The notes under the pieces: model-generated
Databases searched by the model: none
What the model was told of the DNA's origin: nothing
Seen by the model: only the letters and a program-made list of their open reading frames with translations
Part shown: positions 4,194 through 62,695 of the stretch, piece after piece
Numbering within the stretch: the stretch's first letter is position 1
Layout: each line of letters starts with the position of its first letter
Position numbers and translations under genes: made by a program
NCBI GenBank assembly: GCA_002698985.1
Contig: PAAY01000035.1
Location: forward strand, 62,001-126,000
Length of the DNA: 64,000 nt
DNA from: Saprospirales bacterium
Lineage (GTDB): Bacteria; Bacteroidota; Bacteroidia; Chitinophagales; Saprospiraceae
Direction of reading: 5' to 3'

Positions 4194-6071
4194 TTAGAAG
4201 TGGAAGCCATAGCCGAAAAAGACCGTCTGCATGCCCACCATGCTCAGGCTGGCCAGCCCCACTCCCAGCAGGATCAGTGCAAAGGGCAGGTACACGAGCA
4301 CCCGCATTGCCTTGGCGTCCCATCCCAGGTAGTGCATGACCGGCAGCAGCACAAAGGCCAGGCACAATCCGAAAAATGAAATTTGGAACATGTACAAACA
4401 GGCCACGGCAAAGACCAGCCCGGTGAGCACTTCGAAAGCCTGCACGGGCAGCGTGTCCGGATGGCTTTTGTGGATGAGGTTTTCCCAGCCTTTTTTCAGC
4501 TTCGCAAAAAAGCTGCTGGCACCGGCCGTGTCAGTATGCTCCTTTTGCTGCTTATCACCGGTAACCAGAAAGATGGCCTTGCCGGAAATGAGGTAGGCCA
4601 AAACACCGATGGACGATAGAGGACCCAGGGCAGCATAAAGCGCCGTGCTGTGCGCCAGAAAACGGAACAGCTTCAACGGCTTCAGTGCCATTGCAAGGAT
4701 GAAACACAACACGGGGGCAAAAAAGGTCAGCATGGTGATTGCAAAGAAATCCGGCGAATAAATATTCATGAATGCCTCGTGCAGAACCATCACCGGAAAG
4801 GTGAGCGCCGTGCCACCCATCTCCACCGTCATAATCTGGCTTTTTCCGAAGAAATACGGCAAGATCAGGTTGGCATTGACCATGAACAAGAAATAAAGCA
4901 AGGTCAGTGGCAGGTTTAGCGTCGGAAAGAGGATGTCCAGTTTCTCGGCCCAGGTGATGTTTTTAGCCCGCAGCAGCCAGGCCATCTTTTTCTTCAGAAA
5001 CTCGCTGGTGCCCCGGGTCCACTTCATGTGGCGGATCCGGAAGGCCCGAACGGTGTCGGGAAAATCTTCGTAACAAACCACGCTTTCCACGAAGCGCCCT
5101 CTGTATCCCAGTTCTCGGGCCTCGATGGCAAAACCCAGGTCCTCGCTCACGATGTCCGGAAAGCCGCCGATTTTCTGCCATACGTCACGGCGCAAGACCG
5201 CACCATGCCCCAGGAACATAACAAAGCCAAAGTCATTGCGCAGCGGCTGGTACCACTTCCAATGGATGTCGATACCGGGTCCCAGGTCTTTGCTGAGTTT
5301 TGATTTCATGTTCGGGTTGGCCCTGTGGTTGGCCTGTACGAAACCCACCTTGGGGTCGGCCTCCATCACCGGCACCAGCTTGCTCAGAAAATCGGGTGGC
5401 AGGATCTCATCCGCATCGGCAATGGCGAAGTAAGGTTCCTTTACCACCCGCTCCAGAGCATGATTGAGGTTTCCGGCTTTAAAAGCTTTGCGGTCGGGGC
5501 GGCGCACCACCACCACCTTGTCAGGGAATTGCGCAGCGAAGTCATCGACAACCTTTTTGCACTCATCACGGGTGCTGTCATCGAGGATGTAAACCGTGTA
5601 ATTGGGATAATCCTGCTGGACGCAAGACAAGACGCTTTCTTCGAGAAAGTCATTGTAAGTGGTGTACAAAACCGCCACAGCGGGGTATTCGAGCAGATCA
5701 CTTTTGGTAAGGGCGTTTTCCGGCTTTGGCATGAACCAGCGGTGAATGAGGGCAAAAACCACCACCCCTACGTTGTAAAAGCCATACAGCCAGGCAAAGT
5801 CAATGAAAAGAATGAAGCTGAACAGCGCCACCCAACTGGGGGTGCTGTAGGCCGCATCCAACAGGGTCCAAAGCCGGGGCTGAAACCACCAGAGCGACAA
5901 TGCCCAGGCAACGAAAATGCTCACGTACAGCCAGGGTTTGGGGTCGTAAGAGAGCTCGCCTTTTTTGCTTTTTTCTGAAATACCGGTTCCGGGTAAAGCA
6001 ATGGTTCTTTCGAGGGCAATATCCACCCCTCCTTTCACCTGTAGCACAGGCGATTCTTTTGGTAAACGCAT
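4194..6071 (-). CDS. Family 2 membrane glycosyltransferase (cellulose synthase-like)
   Basis: A 625-residue protein from ATG 6071 (MRLPKESPVL). Two membrane segments precede a cytoplasmic GT2 domain with the acidic motifs DDSTRDE and IADADEILPP, then SEDLGFAIEARELGYRG (the ED of the acceptor site) and RIRHMKWTRGTSEF, equivalent to the Q-x-x-R-W motif of processive synthases. At least six further membrane helices follow. The expected activity is polymerisation or addition of hexose/hexosamine units to an exopolysaccharide or glycolipid at the inner membrane. The next gene upstream in the operon (81-base gap) encodes a TPR plus outer-membrane barrel protein, an arrangement like polysaccharide synthase with its export partner. 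No PilZ domain was recognised at the C-terminus. The sugar and linkage cannot be read from sequence. Confidence 0.85.
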   Translation of the reverse strand: MRLPKESPVLQVKGGVDIALERTIALPGTGISEKSKKGELSYDPKPWLYVSIFVAWALSLWWFQPRLWTLLDAAYSTPSWVALFSFILFIDFAWLYGFYNVGVVVFALIHRWFMPKPENALTKSDLLEYPAVAVLYTTYNDFLEESVLSCVQQDYPNYTVYILDDSTRDECKKVVDDFAAQFPDKVVVVRRPDRKAFKAGNLNHALERVVKEPYFAIADADEILPPDFLSKLVPVMEADPKVGFVQANHRANPNMKSKLSKDLGPGIDIHWKWYQPLRNDFGFVMFLGHGAVLRRDVWQKIGGFPDIVSEDLGFAIEARELGYRGRFVESVVCYEDFPDTVRAFRIRHMKWTRGTSEFLKKKMAWLLRAKNITWAEKLDILFPTLNLPLTLLYFLFMVNANLILPYFFGKSQIMTVEMGGTALTFPVMVLHEAFMNIYSPDFFAITMLTFFAPVLCFILAMALKPLKLFRFLAHSTALYAALGPLSSIGVLAYLISGKAIFLVTGDKQQKEHTDTAGASSFFAKLKKGWENLIHKSHPDTLPVQAFEVLTGLVFAVACLYMFQISFFGLCLAFVLLPVMHYLGWDAKAMRVLVYLPFALILLGVGLASLSMVGMQTVFFGYGFHF

Positions 6072-6152
6072 AGTTTTTTCGATTTTTTTGAGTGTAAACT
6101 TTGCCGGCCTACTCCGGCCGGTCCATTTCACAGGGATGTGATATTGGATAGG

Positions 6153-7529
6153 TTATTCTTCCAGTCGGATCTTGATGCCAGCGGCCAGAACGGTGCTCGT
6201 GTTGAAGACGCCGCGTTCGTGGTTGACCACCAACAGGCCCCAAAACCTTTCTGAGACGGGCAGTACGCCCATGAGGTAAGCCCCAATGATTTTGCGGTTC
6301 ATACCCGGCAGCAACTCAGCCTGAAAGTTGTGGTTCCCGTAAAATCCGCCTGCTGAAACCTCATAGCCCTTCGGCAAACGGAGCTTCGAGGCCAGTAAGA
6401 AGCGGTGCTGCCCTACCCCATCTGTTGCATTGCGGGAATAGTACCAGGTGGGTTCCAGGGAAAAGCGCTTGCCAACAGGGATGTACACACCCGTAGAAGT
6501 CAGCCATTCGTTGCCCTTTTCCAGTGTGGTGAACCCACCTACTTTCAGGCTGTAGCCCCGTGGCAGGAAAATGACCTGCTCCACTTTGAGCATGTTTTGC
6601 AATGAGCGGCCGGGCAAACTCCGCAGGCCGTACTCCAGGCGGGTTGCCAGCTTTGGTGACCACACAGCAAAGGCACCCGCCCAGCCGGAAGCAGCCCTTG
6701 TTTTTTGCCGAAGAAAATCAATGTTATCCTGGGAAAGGGAGTTGTCGTAGCGCCCGTAGAATGTCCAGCGCTCGTCGTAATGAAAGCTGAGCTGAGCCAT
6801 CCGCAGGCCGAGGCGTTGCTCCTCATCAACATTTGAGAAGCCACCGATGAGGTCAATTTCGACGCCGGCTTTTTCGGTGCTGATTCTGCCGGCCAGGTCC
6901 CGGGCTTCTGCATTGCCAGGGTCCAGTTTGAGGGCTTTGTCCAGGGCCTTGCGGGCCTGGTAATTCTGCGCCAGCATGGCATAACTCCTGGCCAGCCCGA
7001 GGTAGTGGTCGGCTTTGTCCGGATAGGTCTTCGTCAGAATTTTGTAATGGTGCAAGGCCGCAGCCCCGTTGTTGGCCTTCAGGTAGGCAACGCCCAGGCC
7101 GGTCAGGGCCTCTTCATTTTTTGGGTCGCTTCGCAAAACGGTGCTAAAAGGATAAATGGCCTTGCTCAGCTCGCCGTTCCAAGCATAGGCATAACCCAGG
7201 CCGATGAGGGCCTCTTTGTTTCCCGGATGGATGGTCAGGATCGTCCGGAATTGCTGCTGAGCAAGTTCAAATTTTTGAGCCCAGGCGTTGTTATGGGCTT
7301 GCAGCAACTGTGCAGGAAGGAAATCCGGATGCTGTTCCAGCAGTTGCTGAAGCTGTGCATCGGCTTGCCCGTGCTGCCCGGTGGTGGCCATCTGACGGAT
7401 GGACTCCAACTCCTGGTATTGGGCAGCGAGTTCGTTGCCGGAGGCGAAGAAAAAAAGAATGATGAGGAACTTTAAGAATGGACTTGTCCTGAAAATCCCC
7501 TGTACTTCGAGCGATGAGCATCGCAGCAT
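6153..7529 (-). CDS. TPR-containing YaiO-type outer-membrane beta-barrel protein
   Basis: A 458-residue secreted protein. The N-terminus has a hydrophobic signal segment ending near NELAAQ. Residues about 40-210 are repeated TPR units (for example ALIGLGYAYAWNGELSKAIY, then EALTGLGVAYLKANNGAAAL and DHYLGLARSYAMLAQNYQAR). The remaining half has alternating aromatic strands (YDERWTFYGRYD, GYSLKVGGFTTLEKG, WGLLVVNHERG) and ends in a short strand typical of barrels. This layout matches YaiO/PgaA-like exporters that bind polysaccharide in the periplasm and pass it through the outer membrane. It is the first gene of a two-gene operon with the membrane glycosyltransferase, so a joint role in making and exporting a surface polysaccharide is likely (inference). 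Confidence 0.8.
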   Translation of the reverse strand: MLRCSSLEVQGIFRTSPFLKFLIILFFFASGNELAAQYQELESIRQMATTGQHGQADAQLQQLLEQHPDFLPAQLLQAHNNAWAQKFELAQQQFRTILTIHPGNKEALIGLGYAYAWNGELSKAIYPFSTVLRSDPKNEEALTGLGVAYLKANNGAAALHHYKILTKTYPDKADHYLGLARSYAMLAQNYQARKALDKALKLDPGNAEARDLAGRISTEKAGVEIDLIGGFSNVDEEQRLGLRMAQLSFHYDERWTFYGRYDNSLSQDNIDFLRQKTRAASGWAGAFAVWSPKLATRLEYGLRSLPGRSLQNMLKVEQVIFLPRGYSLKVGGFTTLEKGNEWLTSTGVYIPVGKRFSLEPTWYYSRNATDGVGQHRFLLASKLRLPKGYEVSAGGFYGNHNFQAELLPGMNRKIIGAYLMGVLPVSERFWGLLVVNHERGVFNTSTVLAAGIKIRLEE

Positions 7530-28904: not shown

Positions 28905-30614
28905 TTAGCGCTTCAACAGACTCAGCACATAATTCTGATCTCCGGTCCTGACTTCCATTATATACCACCCGGCAGGCAGCTCCGCACAGGGTATCTGAAC
29001 CGTTGGTTCCACAATGCTTTTGAATTGGCGGATTGTTTGACCGAAGGAATTTCTCAAAACAAAGTAGCCTTCCTCCCCGGTATTTTCTTCGAAAACAAGG
29101 TTCCAGGCGTCGATGGCAGGGTTGGGGTAAACCTTCAGCCCATCTGTTGATGATGGTTCTTTGGTGGCGTTGGGTCCTGTCACGATGAACTGGCCCATCA
29201 TGCCCGCATCCTCGTGGGTAAGCATGTGGCAATGGTACATGTAAGGCACTTCGTCGTCGGCAAAATCTTCGAAACGGGTGATGAAGCGGACGGTGCCCCC
29301 CATCGGCGGCACCAGCACCACATCTTTTCTGCCCAGCATGTTGGCAGGTGGTGGGGCACCATTCACATCGAGGACGTAGAACTGCACATCGTGGATGTGG
29401 AAGGGATGCGAAATACCGGTCATGTTGGTGAGTTGCCAGATTTCGGTGTTGCCCAAAGGTATTTCGAAGTTGATCACGTCAAGGTTGAAGCTGGCACCGT
29501 TGATGACGAACGGGCCATTGGCCATGCCAGTGGGTCCCATTTGCTGCGGCTGAAAGGTAAGGTTGCGGGTTTGCTGGGCGCTGGCTTCAGGAATGGGGTT
29601 TTGGGGCACAAGTGTAGCGGGGATAGCAGTAATGGGATTTACCGAAGGAGAGCCAACGTTGAGTTTCAGAATGTCAAAATCGCTGCCATTGAGAGGGTTG
29701 CTGCTGTAACCGGGGATGGTGGCCACGGGCATGGGACTGGGGCTGGCAGCACCGTAAATGCCACTTGCCAGTTCCGACGAAAAGCTTTTGAGGGTCAGGC
29801 TCTGACCAGCCATGCCATTGAGGTTCAGCAAAATCTCTGCTCTCTCGCCGGGTGCCAGCTGGAGCCTGTCCATCGGCAGCGGTTCTCCCAACAGGCCACC
29901 GTCGGTAGCAATCTGGAAAAATTCGATGTTGCCTTCAAAGCCCAGGTTGTAGGTGCGGTCAGTGGAACCGTTCAGCAGGCGCAGCCTTACAACTTGTGCC
30001 GGCACTTCCAGGTAAGGATCCCTGACGCCGTTGACCAACAGCACATCGTCGGCAGCGGTTTCCACTATGAACTGCATATCCGCATCAAATGCCCGTGATT
30101 GGATGACGATGGGAAAATCGTCCTCACCGTAACTGCGGGGCAATTCGAGTGCGGCTTCTTCCTCGTCTTTCACAATGATGAAACCTGCGATGCCTTTTGT
30201 AACGTGCTCAGCCGTTTTCATGTGCAGGTGCGGGTGGTACCAGTAGGTGGCGGCATGGTCCAGTACGGTAAATTGTGGTGACCAGGTCGTGCCGGCCTCG
30301 ATGACCGTGTGAGGGCCACCGTCGTTGGCAGCAGAGACGTGCATGCCGTGCCAGTGGATGGTCGTGGGTTCGTCCAGTTCATTGATGAGGTTCATGGTCA
30401 CCAGGTCACCTTTATTGAGTATCAGCGTTGGCCCCAGCAAGTCGCCGTTGACGCCCATGGTGTTGGTGGTAAACCCCGGGAAAAACTCCCTCGCACCTTT
30501 TTGAAGATGCAACTCGAATTCGGTACCCGTCAGCGCCGGTGGGATGGGCAAAGGGTATTGTGCCATTGCAAGGAAAGGGAAAAGAAGAAGGGCTAATAAG
30601 TAAATGGTCCTCAT
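28905..30614 (-). CDS. Multicopper oxidase with T9SS C-terminal sorting domain
   Basis: A 569-residue three-domain protein of the CueO/CotA/bilirubin-oxidase group. The signal peptide ends near AMAQ. The copper ligands are visible: HWH (87-89) and HPH (127-129) in domain 1, HPFHIHDVQFYV and YHCHMLTHEDAGMMG in domain 3, giving the type 2/3 cluster and type 1 site (Cys with following His and Met). The last 75 residues (VYPNPAIDAWNLVFEENTGE and on) are a type IX secretion sorting domain, so the enzyme is exported to the surface or medium. Likely roles are Cu(I) oxidation or oxidation of an organic or metal substrate with O2. It is followed by a terminator. Confidence 0.92.
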   Translation of the reverse strand: MRTIYLLALLLFPFLAMAQYPLPIPPALTGTEFELHLQKGAREFFPGFTTNTMGVNGDLLGPTLILNKGDLVTMNLINELDEPTTIHWHGMHVSAANDGGPHTVIEAGTTWSPQFTVLDHAATYWYHPHLHMKTAEHVTKGIAGFIIVKDEEEAALELPRSYGEDDFPIVIQSRAFDADMQFIVETAADDVLLVNGVRDPYLEVPAQVVRLRLLNGSTDRTYNLGFEGNIEFFQIATDGGLLGEPLPMDRLQLAPGERAEILLNLNGMAGQSLTLKSFSSELASGIYGAASPSPMPVATIPGYSSNPLNGSDFDILKLNVGSPSVNPITAIPATLVPQNPIPEASAQQTRNLTFQPQQMGPTGMANGPFVINGASFNLDVINFEIPLGNTEIWQLTNMTGISHPFHIHDVQFYVLDVNGAPPPANMLGRKDVVLVPPMGGTVRFITRFEDFADDEVPYMYHCHMLTHEDAGMMGQFIVTGPNATKEPSSTDGLKVYPNPAIDAWNLVFEENTGEEGYFVLRNSFGQTIRQFKSIVEPTVQIPCAELPAGWYIMEVRTGDQNYVLSLLKR

Positions 30615-54352: not shown

Positions 54353-55579
54353 TTATTTCAGGTAGTTGTGTTCCAGGTTTAAAAGTGAATTGCGGTCATC
54401 GAATTGATCATTGAACACTTTATTGAAGACGTATGCCAGGCCCAATTGAAATCTGTGCTGGCTTTTCCCTAACAGTGCTTGCAGATTTCCATTGTTTTGG
54501 CTGTAACGGTACTGCACAACCATGTCGAAATTATTGCCGATGCGGTAGGAGAAAGTAGCTATAGCCATCCATTGTTTGCTGTTGTCTGCCAAATTGGGAA
54601 AGTCCTTGTAGCCAACACCCAACGTAGTCATGAAAGTGGGCCTTTCCAGCCTGCGGTATACATATCTGAGGGAGCCATAAAACCCGGAGCTTTTGGTGCG
54701 AGTGTAGTCGTTGTATTCATTGATTTCCCGGATGTCATCAAAGCCGAGGTTTTTGATGACCTGGGCTTTGAAATCAATAAAATGGACAGGGTCGGGGTAA
54801 AGGTTGAGGGCAACAGACCCAATGAAATTGGTCAGTACATCATCCACGTTTTCCTTTGACCGTTCGGTCAGGAAATTATTGTATCCCACACCAATTTGCT
54901 GCAAAAAGCCCCGGTTCCATAGCTGTGATTCCGGTACACGGTACACCAATGATCCTCCTATACCATTGAGGGAGAAATCATTGGGTTTCTCAAAATCCTG
55001 AAAATTTTCTCCATGAACGGAGGCCCACCAGCGTTGACCGAAAATGTGAGTGTATTCGAGCACATTGGCGTATTGATTGTCCTCGGTGTTCAATCCGTTG
55101 GAAAAAGGGTTGAGTACATAGTTGTATTGTAGGGCATCATCGTCCCGTAGGGTGGAGAACTCCAGCAGGGTCGTTTGAGAATTGGTCCGGCCTGCTTTAA
55201 AAATATTTTTCTGGTTTTCAACCTGAATCAAAACCTGGTTGTAAAACACCTGCCCTAGCCCGGAGTTGGCGTCGGGAAACGAAAATCCAAGCACCATCTG
55301 CCCACGCCAGCTTCCATACAATTTTTGCCGGGCGCCAATGAGAAAATAGGAGTCTGAAAAATCATTGATGACCTGCTCGCCTTCATTGAGTACAGGCAAC
55401 TCCAAAGATGCCGCCCCCTTATTGCTGAAGAAATTGCCAGTAGCAATGGTCTTAAAACCGATCTCAATTTCGGGCAGCAGGTTGTCCTCTCCCAACTGGG
55501 CAAACAAGGTTAGCTGTCCAAACAGGAAAAATAAAACAGGCAATGTATTCCTAATGATAATTAAAATTTGACGCTGCAT
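54353..55579 (-). CDS. Outer-membrane beta-barrel protein of unknown ligand
   Basis: A 408-residue protein with a signal (NTLPVLFFLFGQLTLFAQ) and a barrel-like rest: GSWRGQMVLGFSFPDANS, ANVLEYTHIFGQRWWASVHG, FIGSVALNLYPDPVHFIDFK, FMTTLGVGYKDFPNL, and an end strand VFNKVFNDQFDDRNS. The family was not recognised. It lies ten bases from the ATP-cone gene and 13 from a small helical protein gene, so it is part of the long minus-strand run. Its position beside copper-binding and oxidase genes suggests metal-related transport or sensing, but no motif proves it. Confidence 0.65.
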   Translation of the reverse strand: MQRQILIIIRNTLPVLFFLFGQLTLFAQLGEDNLLPEIEIGFKTIATGNFFSNKGAASLELPVLNEGEQVINDFSDSYFLIGARQKLYGSWRGQMVLGFSFPDANSGLGQVFYNQVLIQVENQKNIFKAGRTNSQTTLLEFSTLRDDDALQYNYVLNPFSNGLNTEDNQYANVLEYTHIFGQRWWASVHGENFQDFEKPNDFSLNGIGGSLVYRVPESQLWNRGFLQQIGVGYNNFLTERSKENVDDVLTNFIGSVALNLYPDPVHFIDFKAQVIKNLGFDDIREINEYNDYTRTKSSGFYGSLRYVYRRLERPTFMTTLGVGYKDFPNLADNSKQWMAIATFSYRIGNNFDMVVQYRYSQNNGNLQALLGKSQHRFQLGLAYVFNKVFNDQFDDRNSLLNLEHNYLK

Positions 55580-56540: not shown

Positions 56541-57809
56541 CTATTCGTCCAGTGCAATTTTTGGAAGCTTGTCACCACCGAACATCATCTTTTTCATGTC
56601 CGTTTGATCATCCTTCATTGACATGCCTTCCATACCTTCCATTTTTTTGAACATCGTGTTACCAGAATATTTCATGATGAGTTTTTCATCCTCCGGCAGG
56701 TCTTCATACACCAGGGCAAGCAAGTTTCCGCCTGGGTAAAGTCCGTTGTTGGTGACCCTTCGGGTATCGTGGTCATGGAAGGTCCAGATGCCCCGGTTTT
56801 TCCCTTGGATGATGATGTCGTAAGTTTTGCCAGGGCTGAGCGGGACAGTATTCCGTTGCCAAGGATGCTGGATAGGCACGCCATCGTCCGCCACCATCCA
56901 GAAGTCGTGTCCGTGGAGGTGGAGGTGGTGGTTTTCAGTTCCGGCATTGATGAGGCGCACCCGGATGTTTTCGCCTTCCTTGATGAATAGGTAGGGAGTG
57001 TCAGGGTATGATTTCCCATTTACTGTGAACCACTGCGGTTGGGGCAGTTCGTCGGGGGCCCGCCGGTTGGTCAGGTAGGGTGGAATGTATCCCCCCTGCA
57101 TGGCTTCCAACATTTGTTCTTTACTGTCAAAAATATTCCACCGCTGGGCATAGAAACGACCGTTCTTCATCAGGTAACGGCGTTCTTTCATCCGTTCCAG
57201 CATGCCATTCATTTCATTGCGAATGAAATTGACATCATGGGCTGAATATACCAGCGTGTATTCCCGCTCATAAGGGAATTGTTTTTTTATCGGGTCGTCC
57301 GGGTTTTCAACGATGAAAGAACCAAACATCCCGGCCTGCATGTGCAGCAATGTGCCCCAGTGGCAATGGTAAAAGTGAGTACCCTGCGGTTCGGCTACGA
57401 ATTCGTACACAAATTCGTTCTCCGGCATCACCGGCAATTGAGTGACCATTGGCACGCCGTCCATGCGCCAGGGCACATAGATGCCATGCCAATGAATGGT
57501 GTGGTTGAGTTCGGTTTTGTTTTTAAATCTCACCCGCACTTTGTCACCTGCATTTACCCGTATCTCCGGGCCGGGAATGGTGCCGTTGAAAGCAAGGGTA
57601 TGGTACTTCATGCCCGGTGCGGGTTCGTGGACGGCGATGTCCACATAAATCTCAAACTCTTTCCACTCTCCGTCCATGGAAAAAGGAAGTGGTTTAGGGA
57701 ATTTTGTCCGGTTACTTTGCTTTGCACTTTTAGCAAACATATCAACTGGGAAAAGTGTCAAACCTGCAGCAGATGCCGCTCCTTTTGCTATGAAATCCCT
57801 TCTATCCAT
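56541..57809 (-). CDS. Two-domain multicopper oxidase with complete ligand set (type C-like)
   Basis: A 422-residue protein with a Tat-type signal (DRRDFIAKGAASAAGLTLF). Domain 1 has His103, His106, His108 (NHTIHWHGIY) and His148-Cys149-His150 with His156 and Met161 (FYHCHWGTLLHMQAGM), so the type 1 copper lies in domain 1. Domain 2 has His297, His299 (HHLHLHGHDF) and His345, His347 (WTFHDHDTRR) but no Cys. This fits two-domain oxidases with the type 1 site in domain 1, which are active as trimers with the trinuclear cluster between chains. It would oxidise copper or an organic substrate with O2. The Met-rich tail (MFKKMEGMEGMSMKDDQTDM) may bind Cu(I). It is the single-chain reference for the split pair at 60-62.7 kb. 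Confidence 0.9.
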   Translation of the reverse strand: MDRRDFIAKGAASAAGLTLFPVDMFAKSAKQSNRTKFPKPLPFSMDGEWKEFEIYVDIAVHEPAPGMKYHTLAFNGTIPGPEIRVNAGDKVRVRFKNKTELNHTIHWHGIYVPWRMDGVPMVTQLPVMPENEFVYEFVAEPQGTHFYHCHWGTLLHMQAGMFGSFIVENPDDPIKKQFPYEREYTLVYSAHDVNFIRNEMNGMLERMKERRYLMKNGRFYAQRWNIFDSKEQMLEAMQGGYIPPYLTNRRAPDELPQPQWFTVNGKSYPDTPYLFIKEGENIRVRLINAGTENHHLHLHGHDFWMVADDGVPIQHPWQRNTVPLSPGKTYDIIIQGKNRGIWTFHDHDTRRVTNNGLYPGGNLLALVYEDLPEDEKLIMKYSGNTMFKKMEGMEGMSMKDDQTDMKKMMFGGDKLPKIALDE

Positions 57810-57831: not shown

Positions 57832-58869
57832 TCAGTTGATGAAGAAAGCGCTTCCAACAGACATAGATTTGTCCGTGATCGCAATTGATTCTCTTCCATT
57901 TGGAAAAGTTCCCATCAGTGCTCTTATTGCATCAATATTTTCAGGAATCACAATCGCCTGATTGTCCACCAGGTAGGCGTAGTAGAGTTCATCGCCCTCC
58001 ACCTTTAGCATGTCCTCCCAAATTGCCACTTCGTACATATCGCCATGTGGCCTGCCAAGGTCGAGCATCAATTCTTTCACTGCATTATTGGCCGAAAGGC
58101 CGTCTCCGTATTGGATGAAAGCAATACGGGAAGAAGTCCGAAAGGCCGCAATCACCTCCTCCTTGGAGGCAGCCCGTGTGAGGCGGACGTTCCAATAATG
58201 CAGGTGGCTGAGAGTCTCCGGCACTTTAACGGCAGCGGTGACTACGTCCAGTTCCGGGTCGACGCTTTTGGCGTCGGGGCCCTGGTGGCTGGGGATTTCC
58301 TTTTCAGGCACGAGGGTATTCATGATACCATTGAGGTGGCTCTCCCAGGGGTCGGTGGCCCGGCGCAGGAGTGTGCCTCTTGCGCTCTTCAGTAGCCCTG
58401 ATCTTTTCAAGGCCGTCAACGTGCGGACAATGGAAGTGGTATTGCAGGAGACAACCCGGGTGGCCTCTCTGCCCAGGGCCGAATGGTAGTTGGCTTCAGC
58501 AACAAATGAGTGCCCAGTGGCCTCGTGCTTTTCGCCACCCTGAACGATGAATTTTACCCCAGCTTGCCGGTATCGCTCAGCATTTTTGGCACCAAATTTT
58601 TTGGGCGCACAATCTACCACAACATCTACCCTGGTGAGGAGCGTATCAAAGGTACCAGTCACAACTATACCGGAACGCTCCATTTTTTCCGCCACTTCAT
58701 TATTTAATGCGAAAACTGGAATTTCTTTGCTATTTGCAAGCTTTATCCGCCAGTCAGTGGCCACATCGCATATGCCCACCAGGTTCATGTCAGGTTGAAG
58801 CATGACCGCTTCTGCAACCCGTTTTCCAATTACTCCGTATCCATTTACGGCAACATTTATTTTTTTCAT
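57832..58869 (-). CDS. Archaeal-type (type II) glyceraldehyde-3-phosphate dehydrogenase
   Basis: A 345-residue cytoplasmic enzyme from ATG 58869 (MKKINVAVNGYGVIGKRVAE). The NAD(P)-binding loop NGYGVIGKR (9-17) and the catalytic SCNTTS with Cys142 are clear. The sequence lacks the bacterial GAPDH signature and follows the archaeal type II enzyme (ANYHSALGREATRVVSCNTT, DVVTAAVKVPETLSHLHYWN). It converts glyceraldehyde 3-phosphate and 1,3-bisphosphoglycerate. A household bacterial enzyme is expected elsewhere in the genome; this one would be an addition, perhaps acquired. It lies 23 bases upstream of the copper oxidase gene. Confidence 0.93.
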   Translation of the reverse strand: MKKINVAVNGYGVIGKRVAEAVMLQPDMNLVGICDVATDWRIKLANSKEIPVFALNNEVAEKMERSGIVVTGTFDTLLTRVDVVVDCAPKKFGAKNAERYRQAGVKFIVQGGEKHEATGHSFVAEANYHSALGREATRVVSCNTTSIVRTLTALKRSGLLKSARGTLLRRATDPWESHLNGIMNTLVPEKEIPSHQGPDAKSVDPELDVVTAAVKVPETLSHLHYWNVRLTRAASKEEVIAAFRTSSRIAFIQYGDGLSANNAVKELMLDLGRPHGDMYEVAIWEDMLKVEGDELYYAYLVDNQAIVIPENIDAIRALMGTFPNGRESIAITDKSMSVGSAFFIN

Positions 58870-58911
58870 TTTCAATTCATTGTGGAGGTTAAGCGAGATT
58901 CACTGCCTTGT

Positions 58912-59841
58912 TCAGATATAATTTTTGGATAGATCAAACTCCCTGTCTTCGAATGGAAATGTTCTATCAACAGGTGGTAAATAATACACCCTTGGCTTGG
59001 TACCCAATTCTTCCATATATCGGTAGCCAGCTTTTGACTTGAGCATTTCGCTCAATTTCAATGTTTCAGTTCCGTTTGTAACCGAATCTTCGTTTTCATC
59101 ACCAAAATAGATTACCCCGTAAGGACATCCTGTGACACAAGCCGGAAGTTCTCCTTTTACCACATTGTGGGGGCAGAAATCGCATTTTTCCACCGTGCCC
59201 CGTTTATGGGAAGAACACATCTCGTGCGGTGTGATTTCGGACAATTGTTCCGGTGTTAGCATATAATCTTCTTCGCTCCAGTTGAAGGTTCGTTCAGAGT
59301 AAGGGCAAGCCACCATGCAAAATCGGCATCCAATACACCTTTCATTGTCTATACCCACGATGCCGTCAGACAATTTGAAGGTGGCATCAACGGGGCAGAC
59401 TTTTACACAGGGTGGGTTATCGCAGTGGAAGCACAGGGTTGGCATCCAATACGGAGACGACAATTCCGCATCTACCATTTTTTGCAGATTGATGTAGCTG
59501 CGATTGGGTGGAAGATAGTGCATTTTTGAGCAGGCACTCAGGCACTTGCCTGCACCTTTGCACTTTGACAAATCAAATACCATTACCCATTTCCGACCGG
59601 GTATCCCATCACGGACATTGTGCTCAGAGGACACATCAATTTCAGGCACGATCTTGTCAATCAGTTCCTTGTCCAATTCCACAATTTGGCCATCTGTAGA
59701 AAGCAGTTTCACCTTCTCATTCTCCGAAGGCTTCTGAGATTCCCTTAGTGCATAAAGCCAACCAGCAACAACGGAGGTTGCGGCTGCGACCACAACTCCA
59801 TCATTCAGGAATTCCCGCCTGGTTTTTTTTGGATTTTCCAT
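58912..59841 (-). CDS. 4Fe-4S dicluster (DmsB/NrfC-like) electron-transfer protein
   Basis: A 309-residue protein with an N-terminal RREFLNDGVVVAAATSVVAG segment, a Tat-like signal or anchor. Four Cys groups follow: C94, C100, C104 with Ala97 in the place of the usual second Cys; C137, C140, C145, C149; C169, C172, C175, C179; and C209, C220, C223, C235, C239. Groups of this kind bind four iron-sulphur clusters in the electron-transfer subunit of molybdopterin or quinol-linked oxidoreductases. No catalytic or membrane partner subunit is adjacent. The missing Cys could give a 3Fe-4S or altered cluster. It starts the run of minus-strand genes that continues into the GAPDH gene. Confidence 0.88.
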   Translation of the reverse strand: MENPKKTRREFLNDGVVVAAATSVVAGWLYALRESQKPSENEKVKLLSTDGQIVELDKELIDKIVPEIDVSSEHNVRDGIPGRKWVMVFDLSKCKGAGKCLSACSKMHYLPPNRSYINLQKMVDAELSSPYWMPTLCFHCDNPPCVKVCPVDATFKLSDGIVGIDNERCIGCRFCMVACPYSERTFNWSEEDYMLTPEQLSEITPHEMCSSHKRGTVEKCDFCPHNVVKGELPACVTGCPYGVIYFGDENEDSVTNGTETLKLSEMLKSKAGYRYMEELGTKPRVYYLPPVDRTFPFEDREFDLSKNYI

Positions 59842-60324: not shown

Positions 60325-61524
60325 TCAATTTGTCAGAAAAATCGGGACGGATTTTACTGAGAATTCATTTCTGATTTGCAAAATATATTGTCCTGCCGGC
60401 AAGCCCCTTGTATCCAATTCAATGGAAGACGAATTAAAACTTTGGGTCAACAATCTAATACCATTCAAGTCATAAACGGAGAGCCTCTTTAAGCTGTTTG
60501 GGTCCGGGGTTACCGCCACTCTCAAAAGTGTGCTGGCAGGATTTGGACTTACACGGACTTGAAAATTAATGTTCACAGCACTGGTGTTTGTAGCTTCATC
60601 AAATTTTACCGGAATCTCATTATTGAACAGCATATCATCATCGTACATGTCAAAGTAAGCCACATTTACAATGCCATTAAAACTGCTGTCTGGGTCAAGG
60701 ACTACCATGTACCGCTCTCCGGGAAAAATTTCAACTGTGTCTCTTTGATCGAATATTGGTAAAGGCCTGCCATCAGATGATACAACAGTAGCATTAAGCT
60801 GCGAAGGGAAACAATACTTGTGCACCCCATATCCCGCATTAGCTATCCTAATCAGGACAACATCCTCTTTGACTGCTTCAATAGCGACATCAGCTGCAGA
60901 TAATTGTTGTTTGGATTTTCCATTTACCAGAAAATATTGAGGGTGGTACAACGGTACGTCCTTGCCTGAGGGGGGGCTTTCATGCCAATTCACATCAACT
61001 TCCGAACTCATCCAAAGATATTCCTTGTCATAGGCTGGTCCTCCAGTCCAGGCAGTTTGTGAGCCGTCAGATGGAGTGACAATGATGGCGCCATACATGC
61101 CCATTTGGAAGTGCACGACTGATTCAACATGACAATGGTACATGTAGGTGCCAGCATGGGGTGCAATGAATGTATAAGTGCCAGTTCCCATCATTCCTGG
61201 AATTTCAAATGAGGTTTGAGGAACACCATCATTCATTTGATCTACATCAAGACCATGCAAGTGTACGGTATGAGCAAGAGGTGATTGATTGGTTACATTC
61301 AAAGTGACCAACTCTCCTTCCCGAACAATGATGGTCGGCCCTGGTAATGCGGCAGTTTCGCCAAACTCATCTACAAACCCCCACACATCGGTGTTAGATC
61401 CATCCCAAAGCTGCAAGTTGCCAGCCATCCTTGCATACAAGTTAAAAGTTGACTGTGCAATTGAATGCTGGCTGTTGGCACAGAACATCAGAATAATTAT
61501 GCAGACCAAAACTAAATATTTCAT
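60325..61524 (-). CDS. Cupredoxin-family oxidase half: domain-1 copper ligands only, T9SS sorting tail
   Basis: A 399-residue protein from ATG 61524 (MKYLVLVCIIILMFCANSQH). Domain 1 has complete ligands: His85, His88, His90 (AHTVHLHGLD), then His130-Cys131-His132, His138 and Met143 (YHCHVESVVHFQMGM). Domain 2 aligns to the oxidase at 56541-57809 but its four His are replaced: HLH becomes Cys-Phe-Pro (238-240) and HDH becomes Ala-Tyr-Phe (289-291). The C-terminus (SPNPASTLLRVAVTPD) is a T9SS sorting domain. It can hold a type 1 copper and half of a trinuclear cluster. It begins ten bases after the stop of the complementary gene at 61535-62695. Confidence 0.88.
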   Translation of the reverse strand: MKYLVLVCIIILMFCANSQHSIAQSTFNLYARMAGNLQLWDGSNTDVWGFVDEFGETAALPGPTIIVREGELVTLNVTNQSPLAHTVHLHGLDVDQMNDGVPQTSFEIPGMMGTGTYTFIAPHAGTYMYHCHVESVVHFQMGMYGAIIVTPSDGSQTAWTGGPAYDKEYLWMSSEVDVNWHESPPSGKDVPLYHPQYFLVNGKSKQQLSAADVAIEAVKEDVVLIRIANAGYGVHKYCFPSQLNATVVSSDGRPLPIFDQRDTVEIFPGERYMVVLDPDSSFNGIVNVAYFDMYDDDMLFNNEIPVKFDEATNTSAVNINFQVRVSPNPASTLLRVAVTPDPNSLKRLSVYDLNGIRLLTQSFNSSSIELDTRGLPAGQYILQIRNEFSVKSVPIFLTN

Positions 61525-61534
61525 AAAGCAACTT

Positions 61535-62695
61535 TTATTCAAAACTCATGATCAGCAACATACCGTTGGGGTATTCACCACCCCCGGTTATAGCCACAAG
61601 GTTATGGTCATGAACTGGGTATTCGCCTGGTTTGTCAGGCACCAATTCCAGTTCCATGACTTCTCCAGCGAGCAACGGGACAGTATCTTTGATTAGATCA
61701 ACCATCTGAGGCTTTTTCTTGGAATATTTTATTTTCACATGGAACCCGTGAAAATGGATAGAATGCTTCATTATTCCCGAGTTGCAAATGAAAATATTGA
61801 TGGTGTCACCCACCAACCCCTGGACAGCTGCTAAAGGATCTCCCTGAATTTCAGGAAAACGCTTGCCGTTTATGAAAAAGTAATCAGGCTGAAATTCAGT
61901 GAAGTCAACCATGCCGCCATTTGCCAATGATATATTTTTAGCAATTTCGTGTTCACGCAAGTTCCAAAAGAAGTGCTTGCCTGGTGATTCTTCAATTAGC
62001 ATTATCCCAGAGAGTCCCAAATAGGAATTGCCTTGTGAGTAGCTGTCATAATATCTGTAAACACCAGCAGATGACAGCTGAAAACCAAAAATCACTGAAT
62101 CTCCTGGTGCAATTGGGGTACTGGATGTCTGAATTCCATCTATGGCAAGATTGTGATAGGTTGTATCATTGTTGACAACAGTCAGTATGAGCGAATCCCC
62201 TTTTGAAAAGTGAAGAATTTCATTGGTTGGATTAAATGTCCCCGACGAATTAAAAGCCAATGCAGGGAATTCTGCTCCCGATGTAGTTTGGGCTGATCCT
62301 CTATTAATAAAGAGTTTTTTAGTGACTAAATTACCAGGGAGTGCTGATATCTCAAATATACCACTAGCAGCCTGGTAATCTGTTCCTGAATTATCCATTA
62401 TTACAAGAATTCTTGCTGTCTGTGTGCCAATGGCCGGCACCTCCCAATCTAATGAGAGTTGGTTCGAAGGAACATCTATTTGAATGGGCAGCCAGGATGA
62501 TCCCCCGTCTTCAGAATAGTAGACATCCCAATTTTGAGTGTCATGAGGTATGACTATATGCCATGATATGGTAACAACAGTGCCAGGCATGAATACTTCT
62601 CCACCTACAGGATAATCGACAGCGACATGTGCCCTGCTCAAAAATGTCCATAACAGAAGAATTCCCAACAAAAATATTTTTTGCATTAATTTCAT
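61535..62695 (-). CDS. Cupredoxin-family oxidase half: domain-2 copper ligands only, N-terminal Ig-like domain
   Basis: A 386-residue protein with a signal (KIFLLGILLLWTFLSRAHV). Residues about 25-115 are an Ig-like domain of the Kre9/KNH kind (YPVGGEVFMPGTVVTISWHI). The first cupredoxin domain (about 125-235) has lost its ligands: HWH is Ala184-Ile-Asp186, HCH is Tyr216-Asp217-Ser218. The second (about 255-386) keeps them: His311, His314, His316, His319 (KHSIHFHGFHV) and His362-Asp-His364 (EYPVHDHNLV). This is the exact complement of the neighbour at 60325-61524. It overlaps the YdjM-like gene by four bases (ATGA), so the three genes form one transcript. Confidence 0.88.
   Translation of the reverse strand: MKLMQKIFLLGILLLWTFLSRAHVAVDYPVGGEVFMPGTVVTISWHIVIPHDTQNWDVYYSEDGGSSWLPIQIDVPSNQLSLDWEVPAIGTQTARILVIMDNSGTDYQAASGIFEISALPGNLVTKKLFINRGSAQTTSGAEFPALAFNSSGTFNPTNEILHFSKGDSLILTVVNNDTTYHNLAIDGIQTSSTPIAPGDSVIFGFQLSSAGVYRYYDSYSQGNSYLGLSGIMLIEESPGKHFFWNLREHEIAKNISLANGGMVDFTEFQPDYFFINGKRFPEIQGDPLAAVQGLVGDTINIFICNSGIMKHSIHFHGFHVKIKYSKKKPQMVDLIKDTVPLLAGEVMELELVPDKPGEYPVHDHNLVAITGGGEYPNGMLLIMSFE

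Follow-up and report, generated by a model that had tools for sequence, protein, structure and literature searches.

Adjacent cupredoxin genes with complementary copper ligands in Bacteroidota: a candidate multicopper oxidase divided between two chains

The window analyzed here, a stretch of 64,000 nucleotides from contig PAAY01000035.1 of a Saprospirales bacterium (family Saprospiraceae, phylum Bacteroidota; assembly GCA_002698985.1), contains two adjacent genes, called A and B below, whose products keep complementary sets of multicopper oxidase ligands. Both lie on the minus strand, as does a single-chain oxidase of the same window that served for comparison. A (62695 to 61535) is upstream of B (61524 to 60325), and the distance from the A stop to the B ATG is 10 bases, as given in an earlier note on this DNA that had proposed a split multicopper oxidase.

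The gene pair and its copper ligands

The features of the two genes and of the comparison protein are the following.

61535..62695, minus strand: gene A, 386 amino acids, with a signal-like N-terminus, an immunoglobulin-like (Ig-like) domain, a ligand-less cupredoxin domain 1 and a ligand-bearing cupredoxin domain 2
62342..62629, minus strand: Ig-like domain of A, about residues 23-118 (approximate boundaries)
61988..62326, minus strand: A domain 1, residues 124-236, degenerate, with no HxH and no HCH and with one ligand-equivalent histidine (His181) kept
61538..61903, minus strand: A domain 2, residues 265-386, half of a putative trinuclear copper site
61739..61765, minus strand: first ligand motif of A domain 2, His311-SI-His314-F-His316-GF-His319
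61604..61612, minus strand: second ligand motif of A domain 2, His362-Asp-His364
60325..61524, minus strand: gene B, 399 amino acids, with a signal-like N-terminus, a complete domain 1, a ligand-less domain 2 and a type A sorting tail of the type IX secretion system (T9SS)
61069..61443, minus strand: B domain 1, residues 28-152, with the type 1 copper site, the other putative trinuclear half-site and the proton-relay-like Asp99
61255..61272, minus strand: His motif of B, His85-TV-His88-L-His90
61096..61137, minus strand: type 1 and type 3 ligands of B, His130-Cys131-His132, His138 and Met143
60595..60957, minus strand: B domain 2, residues 190-310, degenerate, without an HxH pair
60358..60552, minus strand: T9SS type A sorting domain of B (NCBIfam match, TIGR04183)
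56541..57809, minus strand: single-chain type C two-domain multicopper oxidase, the comparison protein, with all ligands in one chain

Multicopper oxidase domains were recognized by Pfam in A, in B and in the single-chain oxidase, and the T9SS tail in B. The presence of two cupredoxin domains per chain in A and B is indicated by Pfam, by the joined structural model described below and by the comparison of each half of that model with VIA-align. The Ig-like domain of A had not been listed in the earlier note; at most other loci the A frames have about 270 to 330 amino acids and are mostly too short for it. By sequence, the closest solved structures for A and B alike are 3g5w (Nitrosomonas europaea) and 2zwn (a metagenome laccase), which we take to be type C two-domain oxidases with both half-sites in each chain and rings of identical chains. 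Against NCBIfam, both window proteins remain below every curated oxidase and nitrite reductase cut-off. Consequently, family annotation likely treats the two as unrelated copper proteins, and, if the proposed oxidase is real, pairing A with B corrects such annotation in many Bacteroidota genomes.

In a three-way alignment, the single-chain oxidase holds every ligand, as had been claimed for it, with HTIHWH, HCH, a His and a Met in domain 1 and HHLHLH and HDH in domain 2. B has His85, His88, His90, His130, Cys131, His132, His138 and Met143, and the stretches at its domain-2 sites read HKYCFP and VAYFDMY, with no HxH pair (the register of the second site is uncertain by a few residues, and no HxH lies nearby). 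A reads HNLAIDG and YYDS at the ligand positions of domain 1, and its domain 2 has His311, His314, His316 and His319 together with HDH at 362-364. Thus, sequence and alignment agree with the earlier description of B as a protein that keeps the domain-1 set and has its domain-2 His pairs replaced. For A, the same description was right about the domain-2 pairs being kept and the domain-1 pairs and Cys being gone, with the small correction that one ligand-equivalent histidine, His181, remains in domain 1.

Conservation of the pair and of the divided ligand set

As a two-gene system, the A-B pair is conserved, its members staying adjacent in many Bacteroidota. When 60 related genomes were searched with A, 28 gave matches, most of them owing to the Ig-like domain; one match was a strong A relative in another family, adjoined by a B relative with the complementary pattern. 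With a profile built from these two A sequences, A genes were found in 5 of 396 genomes of the order, the window genome and the first relative included, and the three further genomes also have an adjoining B. Scanning public genome contigs with the A profile yielded 114 relatives, of which the best 80 were kept; B directly adjoins A in all 80 of these loci (one B is cut by a contig end after about 130 codons, one is partial and one shares the A frame). These relatives come mostly from Flavobacteriales and other Bacteroidota, with one labelled Ignavibacteriae, and one locus (L036, with the pair at 4920-5798 and 5804-7045) belongs to the cultured Lishizhenia tianjinensis. In the 34 whole genomes reached through the loci, both genes number 40 and every A has a B next to it, one weak B match (G798, 75 bits) having been set aside as a presumed other oxidase. 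The search for adjacent complementary pairs in related genomes had been set beforehand as a test of the split-oxidase idea, and such a pair was found for every A relative examined.

To a similar result led a draw of 200 genomes of the L036 family, taken evenly from a larger group, in which the A and B profiles were searched separately. B was present in 46 genomes and A in 45, as neighbors, and 154 have neither; three of the 49 B-matching genomes (G863, G869 and G881, 75 to 109 bits) were set aside as presumably carrying other oxidases. In two of the 45 genomes with A, contig ends interrupt the gene, and its 3' part is the one that adjoins B. The sole genome with B and without A has B at bases 76-927 of its contig, where A would fall off the contig end, and the searches made gave no A lacking a B. 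In a phylum-wide draw of 395 genomes, A occurred in the window genome only. The B profile had hits in 24 of them: besides the window genome itself, these were four genomes carrying ligand-less relatives, two carrying single-chain type C oxidases and a further 17 with scores of 75 to 90 bits. Viral contigs contained no relative of the two-row A profile, and plasmids, searched with B and the single-chain oxidase but not with A, returned with B only oxidases of less than 60% identity.

The two genes are also tightly coupled: of 84 loci, 44 show an overlap of 4 bases and 20 an overlap of a single base (nearest ATG taken, duplicates included). In five relatives, A and B share one frame with a TAA between them. 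One candidate for a natural A-B fusion (L104, a single open frame) was rejected, since its A C-terminus diverges just before B, which points to a probable one-base frameshift; in the ligand census, this protein was entered as separate A and B parts.

A first census of 82 non-redundant pairs found the domain-2 ligands of A in 82 of 82 and the domain-1 set of B in 81, the remaining B being cut. The contig scan had picked A through motifs containing the histidines, and 20 loci were added from profile searches of the family-wide draw, chosen toward diverged ones. After removal of duplicates (L040, L092 and L082 were dropped, and six further duplicates were left out), the final census comprised 95 distinct A and 96 distinct B; the B of L078, cut by its contig end, is unreadable for ligands, and L104 and L108 were trimmed. 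Thirteen of the 95 A came from the family-draw profile search, and 12 of these 13 lack both contig-scan motifs. Ligand conservation is consequently not only a product of ascertainment.

In this census, the four trinuclear histidines of A are kept in 95/95 (His314 and His316 in 95/95), and between the invariant His362 and His364 the residue is Asn in 8 and Glu in 1 of the 95. The position of His181 is His in 86. B carries the full domain-1 set in 95/95 readable proteins and the His85/88/90 motif in 96/96. The type 1 copper ligands are present in all 95 readable B and absent from A. At the aligned sites, the first domain-1 HxH occurs in no A and the first domain-2 HxH in no B. A count free of register gave the same picture: no HxH in A domain 1 in 91/95, one in 4/95 and never two; no HxH in B domain 2 in 94/96, one in 2/96 and never two. 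The live domains have at least two HxH each, the B cut at its contig end being the sole exception. No A and no B holds both trinuclear half-sites; each readable relative examined shows the same split, with one half in A and the other in B, a regularity that is not chance. Asp99 of B, which presumably sits at the position of the laccase proton-relay Asp, is Asp in 96/96. As a separate observation, two diverged A proteins (L135 and L136) have a Cys at the type 1 Cys position of an otherwise dead domain 1.

In both proteins, the ligand-bearing domain is more conserved than the dead one: mean pairwise identity is 50% for A domain 2 against 30% for A domain 1, and 53% for B domain 1 against 39% for B domain 2 (six duplicate rows included). 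The A and B profiles match each other at a probability of 99.7%, which identifies A and B as paralogues. In a tree of 31 proteins whose root is not known (12 A, 12 B, 4 ligand-less B-like proteins and 3 single-chain oxidases), A forms one group (100/100), and B with its ligand-less relatives forms another (99/98). Only 14% of bootstrap trees recover B by itself as a group, since the ligand-less proteins are placed next to B or inside it. A single division of the site, kept since, would explain these groupings most simply. The A and B distances co-vary (r 0.87 over 98 pairs, duplicates included), which is expected from shared descent alone and was for that reason not used as evidence.

The two proteins are sorted differently. 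The T9SS tail (TIGR04183, E 0.01 or better) was found in 78 of 79 B and in 0 of 78 A, so that the asymmetry pointed out in the earlier note, a tail on one partner only, is itself conserved. The window B, with 36.7 bits against a cut-off of 23, qualifies as a T9SS type A cargo. By a crude test, 72 of 78 A and 76 of 79 B have a signal-like hydrophobic N-terminus. These scans left out L078, L095 and L104 from both sets and L108 also from A.

A candidate heteromeric oxidase and its alternatives

Taken together, the sequences and the model make it highly probable that A and B constitute a type C-like two-domain multicopper oxidase that is obligately heteromeric, a variant with a trinuclear site shared by two polypeptides. 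The split oxidase suggested earlier thereby gains support from the conserved pairing and from the complementary ligand retention in relatives. In type C enzymes, according to the available part of PMC13151041, type 1 copper is in the N-terminal domain and the two-domain trinuclear site is built from domain 1 of one chain and domain 2 of its neighbor, which is the interface that the earlier note had assumed. A and B resemble these oxidases in that each chain has two cupredoxin domains, the type 1 site (in B) lies in domain 1, and the trinuclear histidines would come from domain 1 of one chain and domain 2 of another. In contrast, every chain of a type C oxidase has both half-sites, and identical chains assemble into rings (as described in the same part of PMC13151041), whereas the halves in A and B belong to different gene products.

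Under this proposal, two paralogous two-domain cupredoxin proteins would assemble into one heteromeric oxidase. B would give the type 1 copper and half of the trinuclear site through His88, His90, His130 and His132, and A would give the other half through His314, His316, His362 and His364. Since the half-sites are on separate proteins, a trinuclear site could form only where B domain 1 packs on A domain 2, at an interface of the type that type C oxidases form between identical chains. The type 1 copper of B would be the entry point for electrons, which would pass over the His-Cys-His bridge and reduce O2 at the shared site; A domain 1 and B domain 2 would be retained as structure only. Four coppers, a physical A-B complex and oxidase activity are what the sequences and the model together predict. 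The assembly may be a closed six-domain ring, A2B or AB2, with one complete and two incomplete interfaces, or else a 1:1 dimer in the shape of an arc.

The one-sided tail would have a natural answer in the export of a preassembled complex. As reported in the available part of PMC9251779, T9SS moves proteins across the outer membrane in the folded state; an A-B complex formed and loaded in the periplasm could consequently leave as a unit, A being carried by the T9SS tail of B. The full picture, in which mutually degenerate paralogues form a heteromeric oxidase with a ceruloplasmin-like ring, one catalytic interface, periplasmic copper loading and T9SS export of the folded complex with its tailless partner, is more tentative than the shared site and somewhat less likely than not.

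A structural check had also been suggested in the earlier note, and a confident joined model from one relative answered it only in part. A and B of L108 were joined by reading the stop as glycine and modeled by AlphaFold2 from an alignment of 69 rows (32 of the 51 A rows, 32 of the 51 B rows and five joined ones). The mean predicted local distance difference test score (pLDDT) was 93.3 and the predicted template modeling score (pTM) 0.92, with the lowest pLDDT, 57 to 80, at residues 241-290, which comprise the A C-terminus and the linker. Factor V, ceruloplasmin and factor VIII took the top ranks in Foldseek, mostly with a query template modeling (TM) score of 0.61 to 0.70 and a root-mean-square deviation (rmsd) of 6 to 8 Å over most of the chain (ceruloplasmin, 0.70 and 6.2 Å). 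The query TM score of 3g5w is low (0.41), and this structure can cover only one half of the joined chain; by VIA-align it is the best match of the B half (Z 29.9, 1.9 Å over 260 residues). The model is consistent with A domain 2 packing beside B domain 1 in a ceruloplasmin-like arc, a statement that draws on Foldseek and the pTM only. Ceruloplasmin itself is a single assembly of cupredoxin domains in which only some of the interfaces are catalytic, and it has exactly one trinuclear site. Ceruloplasmin and its relatives are single polypeptides of six domains, whereas A and B are separate bacterial genes with two cupredoxin domains per chain.

Several points weigh against the shared-site oxidase. 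The model represents the relative L108 and not the window pair, and its linker ties A close to B. The second ligand motif of A, at model residues 240-242, borders the least certain stretch. The rmsd to ceruloplasmin is large, and neither ceruloplasmin nor other six-domain chains are among the 50 VIA-align matches listed, though they are top in Foldseek. With the tail on one partner only, the route of A to the surface must be assumed. Finally, the occurrence of ligand-less B-like proteins beside tyrosinase-like genes indicates that such cupredoxin paralogues can persist without copper.

Other explanations of the pair were weighed. A could be a periplasmic copper chaperone or store acting through its domain-2 histidines, and B a surface type 1 electron-transfer protein, the genes being adjacent through a shared pathway. 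The different sorting of A and B would fit such roles, as would the neighboring genes, which in some relatives point to copper handling: homologs of MbnP and of MauG-type proteins occur together in 19 of 77 non-redundant loci, counted within the stretch retrieved for each locus, and a heavy-metal-associated domain family occurs in six loci (Pfam checked for L069). However, each protein keeps its exact trinuclear half-set in type C spacing in 95/95, which neither a chaperone nor a carrier would need, and B keeps trinuclear histidines besides its type 1 site. Since the searches also gave no A without B and the sole lone B lies at a contig end, we consider this explanation improbable. Less probable still is that A and B are decaying pseudo-enzymes kept for binding or structure, which we regard as the least probable account of all. 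The fully ligand-less B-like proteins of four genomes (L115-L118) speak for it, but in A domain 2 and B domain 1 the ligands belong to the residues that hardly vary, and decay would not give trinuclear histidines retained without exception in 95 A and 95 readable B.

Copper nitrite reductases (NirK, AniA) have a two-domain fold with type 1 copper in domain 1 and an interface copper, and A and B might accordingly be read as a heteromer of this kind, with a mononuclear type 2 copper at the A-B interface and no O2-reducing activity. The fold and the interface site would be common to both, and the nitrite reductase family TIGR02376 matches 79/79 B scanned at E 0.01 or better. Nevertheless, its cut-off of 296.3 bits is far above the window proteins (B 60.7 and A 25.3 bits), the oxidases 3g5w and 2zwn are closest by sequence among solved structures, and A and B together keep the full set of eight trinuclear histidines, of which nitrite reductases, as generally understood, use fewer. 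A nitrite reductase-type heteromer is thus very improbable, close to the pseudo-enzymes in rank, and the heteromeric oxidase is the preferred reading.

Among the papers listed in searches of the open-licence literature on split or heteromeric oxidases, where absence is no proof, none was seen to describe two different chains sharing one trinuclear site; this is in line with the earlier remark that no described case was known. The heteromers found there are fungal laccases with a small partner (available part of PMC3129051), and general mentions of laccase oligomers occur in the available part of PMC8517187. POXA3 of Pleurotus ostreatus joins a laccase with a different protein and is in this respect comparable to the proposed A-B complex; its small partner, however, occurs in two glycosylated forms, and the available part of PMC3129051 describes no sharing of the active site. 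If the proposed oxidase is real, a catalytic metal cluster would exist only between two different gene products, each broken alone. It would then be a clear example from nature of how complementary losses convert a homomer into an obligate heteromer, a step that has long been under discussion for duplicated enzymes, and would link two-domain oxidase rings with ceruloplasmin-type proteins that have one active interface. Furthermore, the export of folded complexes by T9SS would become testable through a colored, copper-bearing cargo.

Neighboring genes and further observations

In 62 of 77 non-redundant named loci, a gene C codes for a short T9SS protein, usually just upstream of A. The window has no C at the A-B place; a YdjM-type membrane protein is encoded upstream of A, and a C-like gene lies elsewhere in the genome. 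C (L036:4199-4906 and similar open reading frames) is a T9SS cargo in which two Cys (C-x4-C) are conserved in all of 24 aligned rows. An AlphaFold2 model of C (pLDDT 91.8) had as its best match the PorA N-terminal domain (Z 10.6, 2.8 Å over 116 residues). C was rejected as a cupredoxin partner, as this PorA domain was best and no cupredoxin was among the structure matches listed.

The MbnP-type and diheme MauG/MbnH-type homologs near the pair are exemplified by L038:7071-9059 (Pfam checked for the L038 pair). Copper binding by the MbnP family after kynurenine formation has reportedly been a subject of study. MbnP and MbnH form a pair that is associated with methanobactin operons and is also distributed well outside these (available part of PMC3621798). 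The window genome, too, has MbnP genes, at other places. Six loci have T9SS proteins close to the pair that are possibly thioredoxin-like as judged by eye; the two tested (L037:2170-2952 and L046:3430-4236) gave no Pfam match beyond the tail.

The copper-ligand-less B-like proteins belong to four genomes of one genus (L115:2286-3672, L116:2628-4056, L117:2713-4139 and L118:2978-4365). They adjoin a C-like protein without a T9SS tail and a tyrosinase-like protein, so called from its motifs. From this arrangement, the B-like protein may be a copper-loading or assembly partner of the tyrosinase-like protein.

Within the window, the single-chain oxidase at 56541-57809 is followed by a gene at 54353-55579, and a similar-looking gene likewise follows in L119 and L120 (by eye). 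The product is perhaps an outer-membrane protein; the window copy has no Pfam match. Between the oxidase region and B lies a DsrO-like iron-sulfur protein (58912-59841), which scores 180.8 bits against the DsrO cut-off of 200. An archaeal-type (type II) glyceraldehyde-3-phosphate dehydrogenase is encoded at 57832-58875 (NCBIfam, 446 bits against a cut-off of 185), in a genome that carries T9SS cargo. Another multicopper oxidase with a T9SS tail is encoded at 28905-30614.

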